NCBI GenBank assembly: GCA_014239555.1
Contig: JAAZYR010000007.1
Location: 67,141 to 131,140, forward strand
Length of the DNA stretch: 64,000 nt
Source: Acidimicrobiales bacterium
GTDB lineage: Bacteria > Actinomycetota > Acidimicrobiia > Acidimicrobiales > Poriferisodalaceae
Direction: 5' to 3'
Position numbers and translations under genes: made by a program. Positions within the stretch are counted from its first letter, which is position 1. Each line of letters begins with the position of its first letter. A model generated the notes under the pieces. The model worked only from the letters and a program-made list of their open reading frames with translations, was not told the origin of the DNA and ran no database searches. Below, piece by piece: positions 32,927 to 40,138 of the stretch.

Positions 32927-33985
32927 TCAGCCCTGGAGCGGTTGAATTCCTACTTCAGTCGCTTTCAGCGAAGCCCAAACCGCGCTGCCGGTGTCGATGC
33001 CAAGCTCCGCCACGGCTGCTCTCGTAACGTCAGCGCTGATAGCAAATGGTCCGACCAACGACACTCGGGCAACATCGGCAACGAACTCAATTGATTCGAC
33101 GTGACAGTGCCAACTATTTCGTGGGCTCCCCGTTGGCTCCTGCGTGTAGAGAGCAACGGCAGTTGGATTGATCGTTACTGCGACAGGTCCGTCGAGGCCT
33201 CTATGGGCAGTCGCGATTTCGACGCCATCTGCCAGCTCGACGAGCGAACCATTGCCGTCGCCTTCAAAAAAATTCCACCCAACTAGTTCGGCCACCCATT
33301 TCGTTGCTGGCCGTGTTCGAATTTGATCAGGAGGCGCGCACTGAGTGACACGTCCGCCTTCTAGGACGAGGATTCGGTCGGCGAGAGCGAAAGCATCCGC
33401 AGGGTCGTGAGTCACTACTAAGGCTCCCGCGCCGTTGGAACGTAAAACGTTGCCGATCAATTTGCGGGCAATAACGCGACCTGTGACATCCAATGCACCA
33501 AGGGGTTCGTCTAACAGCACCAATTTCGGGGCAGTGGCTAACGTTCGAGCCAGGGCAACCCTTTGTCGTTGTCCGGCTGAAAGCTCTTCCGGATACCGAT
33601 CAACAAGGTTTGTTATCTCTAATGGTTCGAGTAGTTCGCTGACGTGTGTCGACGACGATCCGGTTCCGAATTCAATATTTCGCATGACATTAAGGTGTGG
33701 AAACAGCAAGCCGTCCTGGAATACCATGCCGATCTCGCGCTCATGAGTCGGAACAGTTCTATTTTCGCCGTGGACTTCTAGGGTCTGGCCGTCCAGTAAA
33801 ACTTGTCCGTCGGCTAGCGGTAGCCATCCAAGGATTGCTTCTAAAAGAGTGGTTTTGCCGGCGCCATTCGGACCCATAAGTGCCACAATCTCAGCTTGTT
33901 TTACGTTTACTTCGGCGTCGAGTTTGAAAGGACCACGTTCGACGACAATGCGACCTTCCAAGAGAAGCTTGAGTTGATCGTTCAT
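32927..33985 (-). CDS. modC: Molybdate ABC transporter ATP-binding protein
   Basis: A 352-residue ATPase with Walker A GPNGAGKT, signature ELSAGQRQR, Walker B LVLLDEPLGALD and switch histidine VVTHDPADA. The C-terminal part is a TOBE/MOP-like domain that binds oxyanion. Its ATG at 33985 overlaps the permease stop by four bases (ATGA), showing coupled translation; the upstream in-frame ATG is internal to the permease gene. It is the last gene of modABC. Molybdate or tungstate is the likely cargo. Confidence 0.9.
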   Translation of the reverse strand: MNDQLKLLLEGRIVVERGPFKLDAEVNVKQAEIVALMGPNGAGKTTLLEAILGWLPLADGQVLLDGQTLEVHGENRTVPTHEREIGMVFQDGLLFPHLNVMRNIEFGTGSSSTHVSELLEPLEITNLVDRYPEELSAGQRQRVALARTLATAPKLVLLDEPLGALDVTGRVIARKLIGNVLRSNGAGALVVTHDPADAFALADRILVLEGGRVTQCAPPDQIRTRPATKWVAELVGWNFFEGDGNGSLVELADGVEIATAHRGLDGPVAVTINPTAVALYTQEPTGSPRNSWHCHVESIEFVADVARVSLVGPFAISADVTRAAVAELGIDTGSAVWASLKATEVGIQPLQG

Positions 33986-34764
33986 TTCGCTGGCCACCAC
34001 CTATCGCGAAGGCAAACGAGCACTATCAGGGAAATAAACACAAGTACCAGGCTCATTGCTAATGCAGCGTCGCGATCCGCTTCCATTGCTACGAAAACGG
34101 CGAGGGGAAGCGTTTGGGTTCGCCCTGGAACGTTGCCAGCAAAGGTGATAGTCGCTCCAAATTCACCTAACGCTCGTGCCCACGCGAGAAACGCGCCAGC
34201 CACAATTGAAGAACGAATCATTGGCAGGACTACGCGAAGCGTTGACCTCAAAGGACTGGCGCCAAGCGAAGCGGCAGCAAGTTCATAACGTGGATCGAGT
34301 GCCCTCAGGCCTGATTCGACTGTTAACACCACAAAGGGAGTGGCGACAAAAGCGTTAGCTATGACAACACCGGCGGGCGTGTATGGCAGCACCAACCCGG
34401 CGGCGTTATCGAGCGTCTCACCGATTAGGCCCCTACGCCCGAAAGCGAACAGAAGTGCTGCGCCGCCAACGACTGGCGGTAACACCATCGGCAACGTCGC
34501 CACGGCTCGAAGGGTTGACGCTGATATCCCCGTCATCCTTGACAACTGAAATGCGATCGGAATTCCTATGAGAAGGGCCAACAATGCCGCTACCAAGCTG
34601 GTCACCAGAGAAAGGAAAAGGGCGTCTACTACGACTTCAGTGCTTAGAAGTCGCGGCAGCTCCGACCAAGGAATCCGCCATAGCAGCGAGAATAATGGAG
34701 CGGCTACAACTGCTACCGCAACGAAGGCAGCAAGCCGGAGCAGGCGGGGGAGTTGCGGCGTCAT
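33982..34764 (-). CDS. modB: Molybdate ABC transporter permease
   Basis: A 260-residue inner-membrane permease with about five or six hydrophobic segments. The EAA region reads LAAASLGASPLRSTLRVVLP, and EFGATITFAGNVPGRTQTLP is characteristic of ModB. It would form the channel dimer with ModC. Stop-start overlaps of four bases join it to modA upstream and modC downstream. Confidence 0.92.
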   Translation of the reverse strand: MTPQLPRLLRLAAFVAVAVVAAPLFSLLWRIPWSELPRLLSTEVVVDALFLSLVTSLVAALLALLIGIPIAFQLSRMTGISASTLRAVATLPMVLPPVVGGAALLFAFGRRGLIGETLDNAAGLVLPYTPAGVVIANAFVATPFVVLTVESGLRALDPRYELAAASLGASPLRSTLRVVLPMIRSSIVAGAFLAWARALGEFGATITFAGNVPGRTQTLPLAVFVAMEADRDAALAMSLVLVFISLIVLVCLRDRWWPAK

Positions 34765-35531
34765 GGAAGTTGAAACCCAAAGTGAGTGAGAGCCGATTGT
34801 CCCACTGGTTCCGCGAACAACGCTGCAAAGTTTTCGGCTGCTCGCCGTGCCTTTGAGTCTGTTGTCACCGCCAGAGGGTACGACGTTGAATACTGATCCG
34901 CCCGTGCGTTCGCAAGATGCCCCAACTGTTCGCGACTCGTGCGGAGATCGGACATATAGACGATGCCGACATCGACCTCGTCGCGTTCCACCTTGGCCAG
35001 TACAGCCTTGACATTGGATTCATGTGTAGCCGATGACAGATCCAGCCCTACAGAAGATGCATATGCCCACGCCAATGCTCCGCAGGGGGAGGATTTCACG
35101 CACACTGCGATTTGGAGTGCAGTTCGTCGAACATCATCTATGGAACCGATGTCTTTTACTAGTTCCGGAGACACTATGACGGCAAGCGAATTCTGAGCTA
35201 TTTGTTTGGGAGCCCGCACCAAACCGATGTCTCGTAACTGATCCATGTGGGAGCGACTCGCAAGTATCACTAGGTCAGCGTCAGCACCCTCCTGTAACTG
35301 CATGACGAGAGTGCCACTTCCGGCGATATTGAGTTCGACATCAGTGTTCGGGTAACGAGTTTCGTACTCTTCCGCCAAATGCTGAACGACCTCAGTCAAC
35401 GACGACGCTGCGAAGACGCGTATTGAGTGTGACCCCGAACCGCATCCGTTGAGAAAAACAGCGATCAGAACTGTCACTGTTGCGAGCAAAATCCGCATTG
35501 ATCGGGCTGACGGTATCGACTGCTGACCCAT
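34761..35531 (-). CDS. modA: Molybdate ABC transporter substrate-binding lipoprotein
   Basis: A 256-residue periplasmic-type binding protein of the ModA family. The N-terminus has a lipoprotein signal ending VFLNGC (lipobox Cys near residue 30). VFAASSLTEVVQHLA, the SGTLVMQLQEGADADLV loop and GIVYMSDLR are family regions; serine and threonine side chains there should grip the oxyanion. ATG at 35531 or the internal ATG at 35498 are both possible, with no clear ribosome site for either. It is divergent from the metallo-hydrolase gene, about 40 bases apart. Confidence 0.9.
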   Translation of the reverse strand: MGQQSIPSARSMRILLATVTVLIAVFLNGCGSGSHSIRVFAASSLTEVVQHLAEEYETRYPNTDVELNIAGSGTLVMQLQEGADADLVILASRSHMDQLRDIGLVRAPKQIAQNSLAVIVSPELVKDIGSIDDVRRTALQIAVCVKSSPCGALAWAYASSVGLDLSSATHESNVKAVLAKVERDEVDVGIVYMSDLRTSREQLGHLANARADQYSTSYPLAVTTDSKARRAAENFAALFAEPVGQSALTHFGFQLP

Positions 35532-38822: not shown

Positions 38823-39545
38823 ATGGGGGTTCCTCAAAGGCCTGCTCGTTTGGGCTTACTGATACTGGATTCGATAGACCTACCGCATCGCGCCATAGCG
38901 GGCGACTATGAGCAACTGTTTCGCAATTTGTTCAAAGCAGGTGGTCACGAGATCGTTCCCGTTGACGTTAAGCGTCAAACATTACCTGCCCACGATGAGT
39001 GCGACGGATGGATCATTCCTGGTTCGCGACAATCGGTGGTGGATGACGATAGTTGGATCGCTCAACTACGAACTTGGACCCGACAGGCTCTCGAAGCTCA
39101 AGTGCCGTTAGCCGGTGTGTGCTTTGGTCACCAACTGATTGCCGCGGAAGTCGGTGCTCAAGTCGGTCCCGCCCCAGGTGGATGGAATATCGGTGTGGTC
39201 GACTACGAAGTAACAGACAGCCCTCCGTGGCTTACTTTGCCCAGTCACTACAGTCTGATTGCAAGCCACCAAGACCAAGTTCTGACCGTTTCCTCCGATA
39301 TGGAGTTAATGGCCACTGCCGCTACTTGCCCAGTTGGCGCCTTTACTGTCGGGAGCAACGTGATGTGTATTCAAGGCCATCCTGAGTTTGTTCCCCCGCT
39401 TGCCGCATCGCTTTATAAGTCTCGCATCGAACGCATCGGATTAGATGCCGTAGAGAAAGCGCTCGCAAGCCTCGAACAACAGTTGGATCGACACGATGTC
39501 GCTCATTGGCTTTTACAAACGATCTACCAAGGCTCCCCGGCCTAA
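38823..39545 (+). CDS. Type 1 glutamine amidotransferase
   Basis: A 240-residue class I GATase domain. The nucleophile cysteine is in AGVCFGHQLIAAE near residue 95, and QGHPEF provides the histidine and glutamate of the triad. Such stand-alone domains hydrolyse glutamine or gamma-glutamyl amides, for instance in polyamine or amine breakdown. ATG at 38823 begins MGVPQRPARLGLLILDS, the family strand; the open frame extends 26 codons upstream without a family match. The CMD gene follows after 20 bases, so an operon with the next three genes is likely. Confidence 0.88.
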   Translation: MGVPQRPARLGLLILDSIDLPHRAIAGDYEQLFRNLFKAGGHEIVPVDVKRQTLPAHDECDGWIIPGSRQSVVDDDSWIAQLRTWTRQALEAQVPLAGVCFGHQLIAAEVGAQVGPAPGGWNIGVVDYEVTDSPPWLTLPSHYSLIASHQDQVLTVSSDMELMATAATCPVGAFTVGSNVMCIQGHPEFVPPLAASLYKSRIERIGLDAVEKALASLEQQLDRHDVAHWLLQTIYQGSPA

Positions 39546-39565
39546 CATGGCTTCCAGGAGTAGCA

Positions 39566-40138
39566 ATGACAAATGACCTTGGACATCTTCCCAAAATGGG
39601 CGAACTGGATGACCGTAACCTTGACCGGCTCGAAACTTGGTATGCCAAGGCCTACCAAGATGACAATTTATTTCGAACGTTGGCTAATGACGAAGTAACC
39701 CTCAACATGTTCCTTGATTGGGTTGCTTTGATGTACGGCGGTGCATCCGGGCTCGATCGACACATGATCGAACTTTGTCGAATACGCATGGCGAACGTCA
39801 ATGAATGTTTTCATTGAAGCATGGTCAAAAGCGCATCGTTGGTGCGCACCGGCTTAACGGATGAGATCATCAAACAATTGGATGATTACAGGTCTTCCGA
39901 CCTCCCGGCAGCATGGAAATCGGCGTTAGCCTTTACCGACCACTTGGCGGGCAACCCTAAAGGGCCAATTCCAGAGACGCTTTACGCAGAGTTGGGAGAG
40001 CACTTCAGTCAGGCAGAAATTCTTCGGCTCGGAGCCTTACTGGCTGTCGGCAGCGGCTGGCAGCGGATGATCGAGGCTTTCGGGATACGTCCCGACCATT
40101 TTGAGCCTGGTCAAGACGGCCCCTGGAAGTTTGATTGA
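39566..40138 (+). CDS. CMD/AhpD-like protein with in-frame TGA at the second active-site Cys (candidate selenoprotein)
   Basis: One frame of 191 codons with a single internal TGA at 39815-39817. The start (ATG 39566) follows AGGAG with five bases. The protein matches carboxymuconolactone-decarboxylase/AhpD-like folds. The active-site helix reads IELCRIRMANVNECFH, then TGA, then SMVKSASL. The family's redox C-x-x-C therefore reads Cys-Phe-His-TGA, so the stop replaces exactly the second cysteine. The following 106 residues continue the family, ending GWQRMIEAFGIRP. A stem-loop lies 13 bases after the TGA. Readthrough as selenocysteine would give a 190-residue peroxidase-like protein. Without it the gene is two fragments. 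The alternatives are a Cys-to-stop mutation or a base-call error. Confidence 0.7.
39823..39850 (+). promoter_or_regulatory. SECIS-like stem-loop after the TGA
   Basis: GCGCA (39831-39835) and TGCGC (39843-39847) form a 5-bp stem around the loop TCGTTGG. GGT (39823-39825) and ACC (39848-39850) can extend it past a five-base bulge. The apical loop starts 18 bases after the TGA and has G within its first positions if a U-G pair closes it. This fits the published bacterial SECIS rule (short hairpin 16-37 bases downstream, G in the loop). Chance stems of this size are common. Confidence 0.45.

Follow-up and report, generated by a model that had tools for sequence, protein, structure and literature searches.

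The window, by which we mean the whole stretch of 64,000 nucleotides that was analysed, contains a single forward-strand frame that runs from the ATG at 39566 to a TGA ending at 40138 and is broken only by another TGA at 39815-39817, exactly at the coordinates given in the preliminary description. The sequence AGGAG (39556-39560) lies 5 nt ahead of the ATG. Around codon 84 the frame reads NECFH-TGA-SMVKSAS, which would give the redox pair C81-F-H-U84 with the TGA read as selenocysteine. Ordinary ORF calling splits the gene into 39506-39817 and 39821-40138, and standard annotation would give two broken ORFs in its place. TGA codons flanked on either side by 50 or more open codons occur seven times in the 64 kb, and only the one at codon 84 lies within a single family, the remaining cases being, by inspection, ordinary gene ends or chance frames. 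The features of the locus are:

39566..40138, + strand: putative selenoprotein gene of the AhpD-like type (CMD superfamily), encoding 190 residues including Sec84, preceded by AGGAG at 39556-39560
39770..39772, + strand: Glu69 codon, invariant, matching the relay Glu36 of PA0269 in the alignment (role described in PMC3141380)
39806..39808, + strand: Cys81 codon TGT, the proposed partner of Sec84, invariant in the ortholog alignment
39815..39817, + strand: TGA predicted to be read as selenocysteine (Sec84), present as TGA in all orthologs and lying opposite the second Cys of PA0269 in the alignment
39830..39844, + strand: codons S89-V93 (AGC GCA TCG TTG GTG), showing no synonymous change across 31 distinct orthologs
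39831..39847, + strand: candidate SECIS hairpin whose first stem base is 13 nt past the UGA; the stem is GCGCAUC/GGUGCGC and the GUU loop has a leading G
40136..40138, + strand: second TGA of the gene and its real stop, with TAA or TAG in this place in several orthologs

One protein family continues on both sides of the TGA, as had been claimed from the translation: the read-through protein matches TIGR01926 (peroxidase-related enzyme) across the TGA, over residues 8-176, with an E value of 8.5e-10 and 38.7 bits against a cut-off of 81.8. Other members of the clade reach 29.5-55.3 bits with this model, also below 81.8; the Pfam CMD match (21.4 bits) falls slightly under its cut-off of 23, and the clade lies below the curated cut-offs of all NCBIfam models matched. 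The best PDB matches are structures of PA0269 (2IJC, 2O4D and 7XW1), with a Foldseek E value of 3e-5 and a VIA-align Z of 16 over about 130 residues, where the predicted structure is of moderate confidence (mean pLDDT 69, with both ends and residues 25-39 poor). Sequence profile and predicted structure agree and point to an all-helical AhpD-like CMD fold. Profile alignment to PA0269 (2IJC, 7XW1; motif C-A-Y-C) places the TGA on the second cysteine of the C-x-x-C motif, as the first reading of the sequence had it, and pairs Sec84 with Cys51, Cys81 with Cys48, Glu69 with Glu36, His83 with Tyr50 and Lys/Arg88 with His55. The roles of the active-site residues of PA0269, including that of the relay glutamate, have been described (PMC3141380).

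The genome to which the window belongs (2.72 Mb in 68 contigs, 95.6% complete) encodes the machinery for selenocysteine insertion, and the search for selA, selB, selC and selD proposed at the outset found all four. The tRNA-Sec scores 65.5 bits, above its cut-off, and ARAGORN agrees, with anticodon TCA; selA (399.4 bits) and selB (288.7 bits) adjoin on one contig; and selD (369 bits; L018, contig C44) contains one in-frame TGA (GAGUACK), so that SelD of this genome is probably a selenoprotein itself. More widely, selA is above the cut-off in 39 of the 39 genomes of the GTDB family and was found in 200 of the 296 sampled genomes of the class. A UGA read as some other residue (for example Trp), or reassigned genome-wide, would equally leave the frame open past codon 84. 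However, tRNA-Sec, SelA, SelB and SelD are all present, the last TGA of the gene serves as a stop, with TAA or TAG in its place in several relatives, and related proteins carry Cys, not Trp, at position 84, all of which leaves such a decoding a very slim chance.

The TGA is a constant property of the gene. Strong orthologs were found in 30 genomes of the GTDB family (264-435 bits, 65-99% identity, the 99% being the window's own gene, which is counted among the 30), and every one of them carries a single in-frame TGA. Named genomes, when scanned, contributed 22 loci with 46-96% identity, labelled as Acidimicrobiia or other actinobacterial MAGs, several of them from the same genomes as in the set of 30. 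In every translated ortholog the TGA aligns at the Sec84 position, after N-[EQ]-C-[FV]-H, and no ortholog found, at identities as low as 46%, replaces it by Cys or any other codon or shows a disrupted frame. Cys81, Sec84, Glu69 and His83 are invariant across the clade alignment. The expectation that Cys would occupy the TGA position in most homologs was therefore borne out for the wider CMD family and failed within the ortholog clade, where no Cys form was found. A sequencing or assembly error at 39815-39817, which would make the TGA an artefact, is very unlikely because the TGA recurs in genomes that were assembled separately, dozens in number and drawn from many studies, and the probability left to an error is vanishing.

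In a class-wide profile search the window gene scored 346 bits and its relatives in two further genomes 293 (G265) and 186 (G315), with a TGA in all family members, while below them, from 77 bits downwards, came other CMD proteins, most of which have Cys and two a TGA. A search of 396 genomes of the phylum returned nothing above 75 bits except the window's own gene, and within the sampled genomes searched the clade is apparently restricted to Acidimicrobiia. In a tree of 30 rows, 22 Sec rows form one group with support 93/89, although branches near this group are long and the deep order is unsure. Elsewhere in the CMD superfamily Sec and Cys have been exchanged, since another TGA-bearing gene (L080) groups with a Cys gene with support 99/94.

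The part of the gene beyond the TGA is constrained at least as strongly as the part ahead of it. For the two closest pairs, dN/dS is 0.15 and 0.14 ahead of the TGA and falls to 0.05 and 0.03 past it; the estimate is limited to these pairs since synonymous sites are saturated in more distant ones. This purifying selection speaks against the alternative raised in the preliminary description, namely that a Cys codon has decayed to TGA by a nonsense mutation and that the two halves are remnants of a pseudogene. A one-base change of TGT or TGC would indeed give a single TGA at a cysteine, but the same TGA is found in every ortholog, across many genera and with no further damage to the frame, the Sec machinery is complete and the codons of the hairpin described below are frozen, and we consider decay of the gene extremely improbable. 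The selenoprotein reading of 39566-40138, as originally proposed, is in contrast very well supported by comparative sequence evidence: the Sec machinery, the TGA in all orthologs and the frozen hairpin codons all favour it. Two of the conditions named beforehand as refuting it, a genome lacking the Sec machinery and homologs lacking Cys at this position, were examined, and neither applies.

Bacterial SECIS elements have been described as hairpins with a small apical loop containing a G, directly downstream of the UGA (PMC1088965), and the candidate hairpin at 39831-39847 fits this description. GCGCAUC-GUU-GGUGCGC is predicted to form in nearly all of the 31 distinct sequences. Codons 89-93, for Ser, Ala, Ser, Leu and Val, are identical in these sequences except for one Met in place of Val, and among 58 conserved degenerate columns Asp33 is the only other one with a single codon, while four- and six-fold columns outside the hairpin mostly have four to six codons in use. 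Synonymous diversity at codons +5 to +9 is zero, compared with a median of 0.57 for windows of five codons, and the four windows of lowest diversity in the gene each include part of the hairpin. In a check of seven sequences, picked to include variants, 49 of 49 pair cells were standard, including G-U, U-A and one C-G exchange on both sides, the latter coming from L080, another CMD gene with a TGA. When the partners are shifted by 1-3 columns, pairing falls to 12-53%. The stem is nearly invariant, so there is little true covariation. Folding energy was considered as a further line of evidence and was not relied on, since the hairpin in the window is unremarkable against shuffled sequences (z -1.5); the case for a putative SECIS rests on codon freezing and on position. 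The frozen codons would also offer a clear case, found in nature, of synonymous sites being constrained by RNA structure. L080 has a hairpin of the same shape in the same place as in the window gene.

Selenoproteins of this general kind are already known. AhpD-like selenoproteins with CxxU (COG2128, now TIGR01926) were reported in 2005 with 27 sequences from the Sargasso Sea (PMC1088965), the GOS data contained 299 Sec and 902 Cys members (PMC2398784), and AhpD-like 1 is among the families in a 2026 list of prokaryotic selenoproteins (PMC13188914). The Sargasso and GOS proteins share with the window gene the superfamily, TIGR01926 as best NCBIfam match, the CxxU motif, an origin in marine bacteria and a SECIS directly after the UGA, and by predicted fold, motif and recoding the window gene is of the same kind. 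The published GOS family has many Cys members, while no Cys form was found in the window clade, which scores 30-55 bits against the TIGR01926 cut-off of 81.8; the comparison with these sets is by description, and the clade may be among them. NF041238 (AhpD_rel_CFYUT) and NF053654 (YciW-related) are CMD-fold (seleno)protein models with weak similarity to the window gene, which lies far under their cut-offs (15.6 against 175 and 33.6 against 310 bits, respectively). The namesake CFYUT motif of NF041238 is borne by a separate gene of the same genome (L099, NECFYUTAAH). What our analysis adds is a clade, apparently restricted to Acidimicrobiia, for which no Cys form was found, which lies below the NCBIfam cut-offs and in which the relay histidine is replaced by Lys or Arg. 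Our literature search on selenoproteins of Acidimicrobiia or MedAcidi found nothing on the point, and the poorly studied marine Acidimicrobiia gain here a well-documented AhpD-like selenoprotein clade. As no Cys form was found, this clade could serve to ask why Sec is retained.

With PA0269 of Pseudomonas aeruginosa and AhpD of Mycobacterium tuberculosis the window protein has in common the fold, the position of C-x-x-C and the relay glutamate, and it differs from them in Sec for the second Cys and in Lys/Arg for His55/His137; its N-terminal region is longer than that of PA0269. The relay histidine, four residues after the second Cys, is invariant in the structures compared in PMC3141380, whereas all aligned orthologs of the window gene have Lys or Arg at this position. 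We considered whether Sec permits the loss of this histidine and rejected the idea, as several Cys relatives have Arg there too and two other TGA-bearing CMD genes of the same genome (L097 and L099) keep His. Lys/Arg at the relay position is a trait of the subgroup, not linked to Sec, because Cys relatives share the Arg, and since the histidine is replaced, AhpD-like peroxidase activity may not carry over.

We propose that SelB with Sec-tRNA(Sec) decodes the UGA at 39815-39817 as selenocysteine, that the hairpin at 39831-39847 directs this insertion, and that translation stops at the second TGA (40136-40138). Once the all-helical protein is folded, Sec84 and Cys81 would sit as a selenol-thiol pair beside Glu69, His83 and Lys/Arg88, reacting through a selenenyl-sulfide intermediate, and this pair would most likely reduce peroxides or feed electrons to a peroxiredoxin, as AhpD does. 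The recoding, the fold family and the active-site residues are supported by the sequence comparisons. By analogy of fold and active site, from which catalysis, substrate and partner are all deduced, the protein is likely to be either a selenol-thiol peroxidase or an adaptor that donates electrons to a peroxiredoxin. Taken as a whole, the explanation that combines SelB- and hairpin-directed recoding at Sec84, an AhpD-like fold and likely selenol-thiol peroxide or peroxiredoxin chemistry appears highly probable to us.

A different function for the same selenoprotein has to be weighed. The Sec84/Cys81 pair may work on halogenated compounds or other organic molecules, as in the reductive debrominase Bmp8, which is among the better fold matches (6OHI/6OHJ, Z 13.7); the replacement of the relay histidine by Lys/Arg would agree with this, and the neighbours in the window read like a thioesterase and a dehydrogenase rather than ahpC. 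The sequence matches are, however, to AhpD and peroxidase-related proteins, PA0269-type structures outscore Bmp8, and no halogen-related genes were seen near the window gene, so that we regard a non-peroxidase function as unlikely. The more specific proposal of an AhpD-like lineage restricted to Acidimicrobiia that has fixed Sec, lacks any Cys form and uses a Lys/Arg-assisted selenol for a non-AhpD reaction such as Bmp8-like reductive dehalogenation, seems to us quite improbable.

The gene neighbourhood gives no strong link to function and was set aside as a clue, synteny being absent in deeper branches: it is kept in the nearest relatives only and is lost in L065-L071. In near relatives the neighbours, named from their translations, are a molybdate-type transporter, a metallo-beta-lactamase, a malate/lactate-type dehydrogenase and an alcohol dehydrogenase, with further conserved neighbours that are thioesterase-like, DUF1330-like, an SDR and GlnRS. 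No peroxiredoxin-type gene was seen beside the selenoprotein gene at the locus. In the window itself, three genes at 32927-35531 on the minus strand resemble a molybdate-type ABC transporter (binding protein, permease and ATPase), and the nearest relatives keep putative transporter genes of this type upstream of their selenoprotein gene.

Judging from in-frame TGA codons in other genes, the genome of the window appears to be rich in selenoproteins. Peroxiredoxin/AhpC-TSA-type genes carry an in-frame TGA at redox positions, as TPGU in L085 (contig C22) and L086 (contig C1); L087 (contig C3 of the same genome), of the same type, has the TGA in WUPPC, and a fourth match, L088, also bears a TGA. 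Two CMD-type genes of the genome, L097 (contig C4) and L099 (contig C44), have the CxxU motifs CHYU and CFYUT, and other CMD-type genes of Acidimicrobiia also bear a TGA in CxxU, as in L078 (CGYU) and L080 (CVVU).
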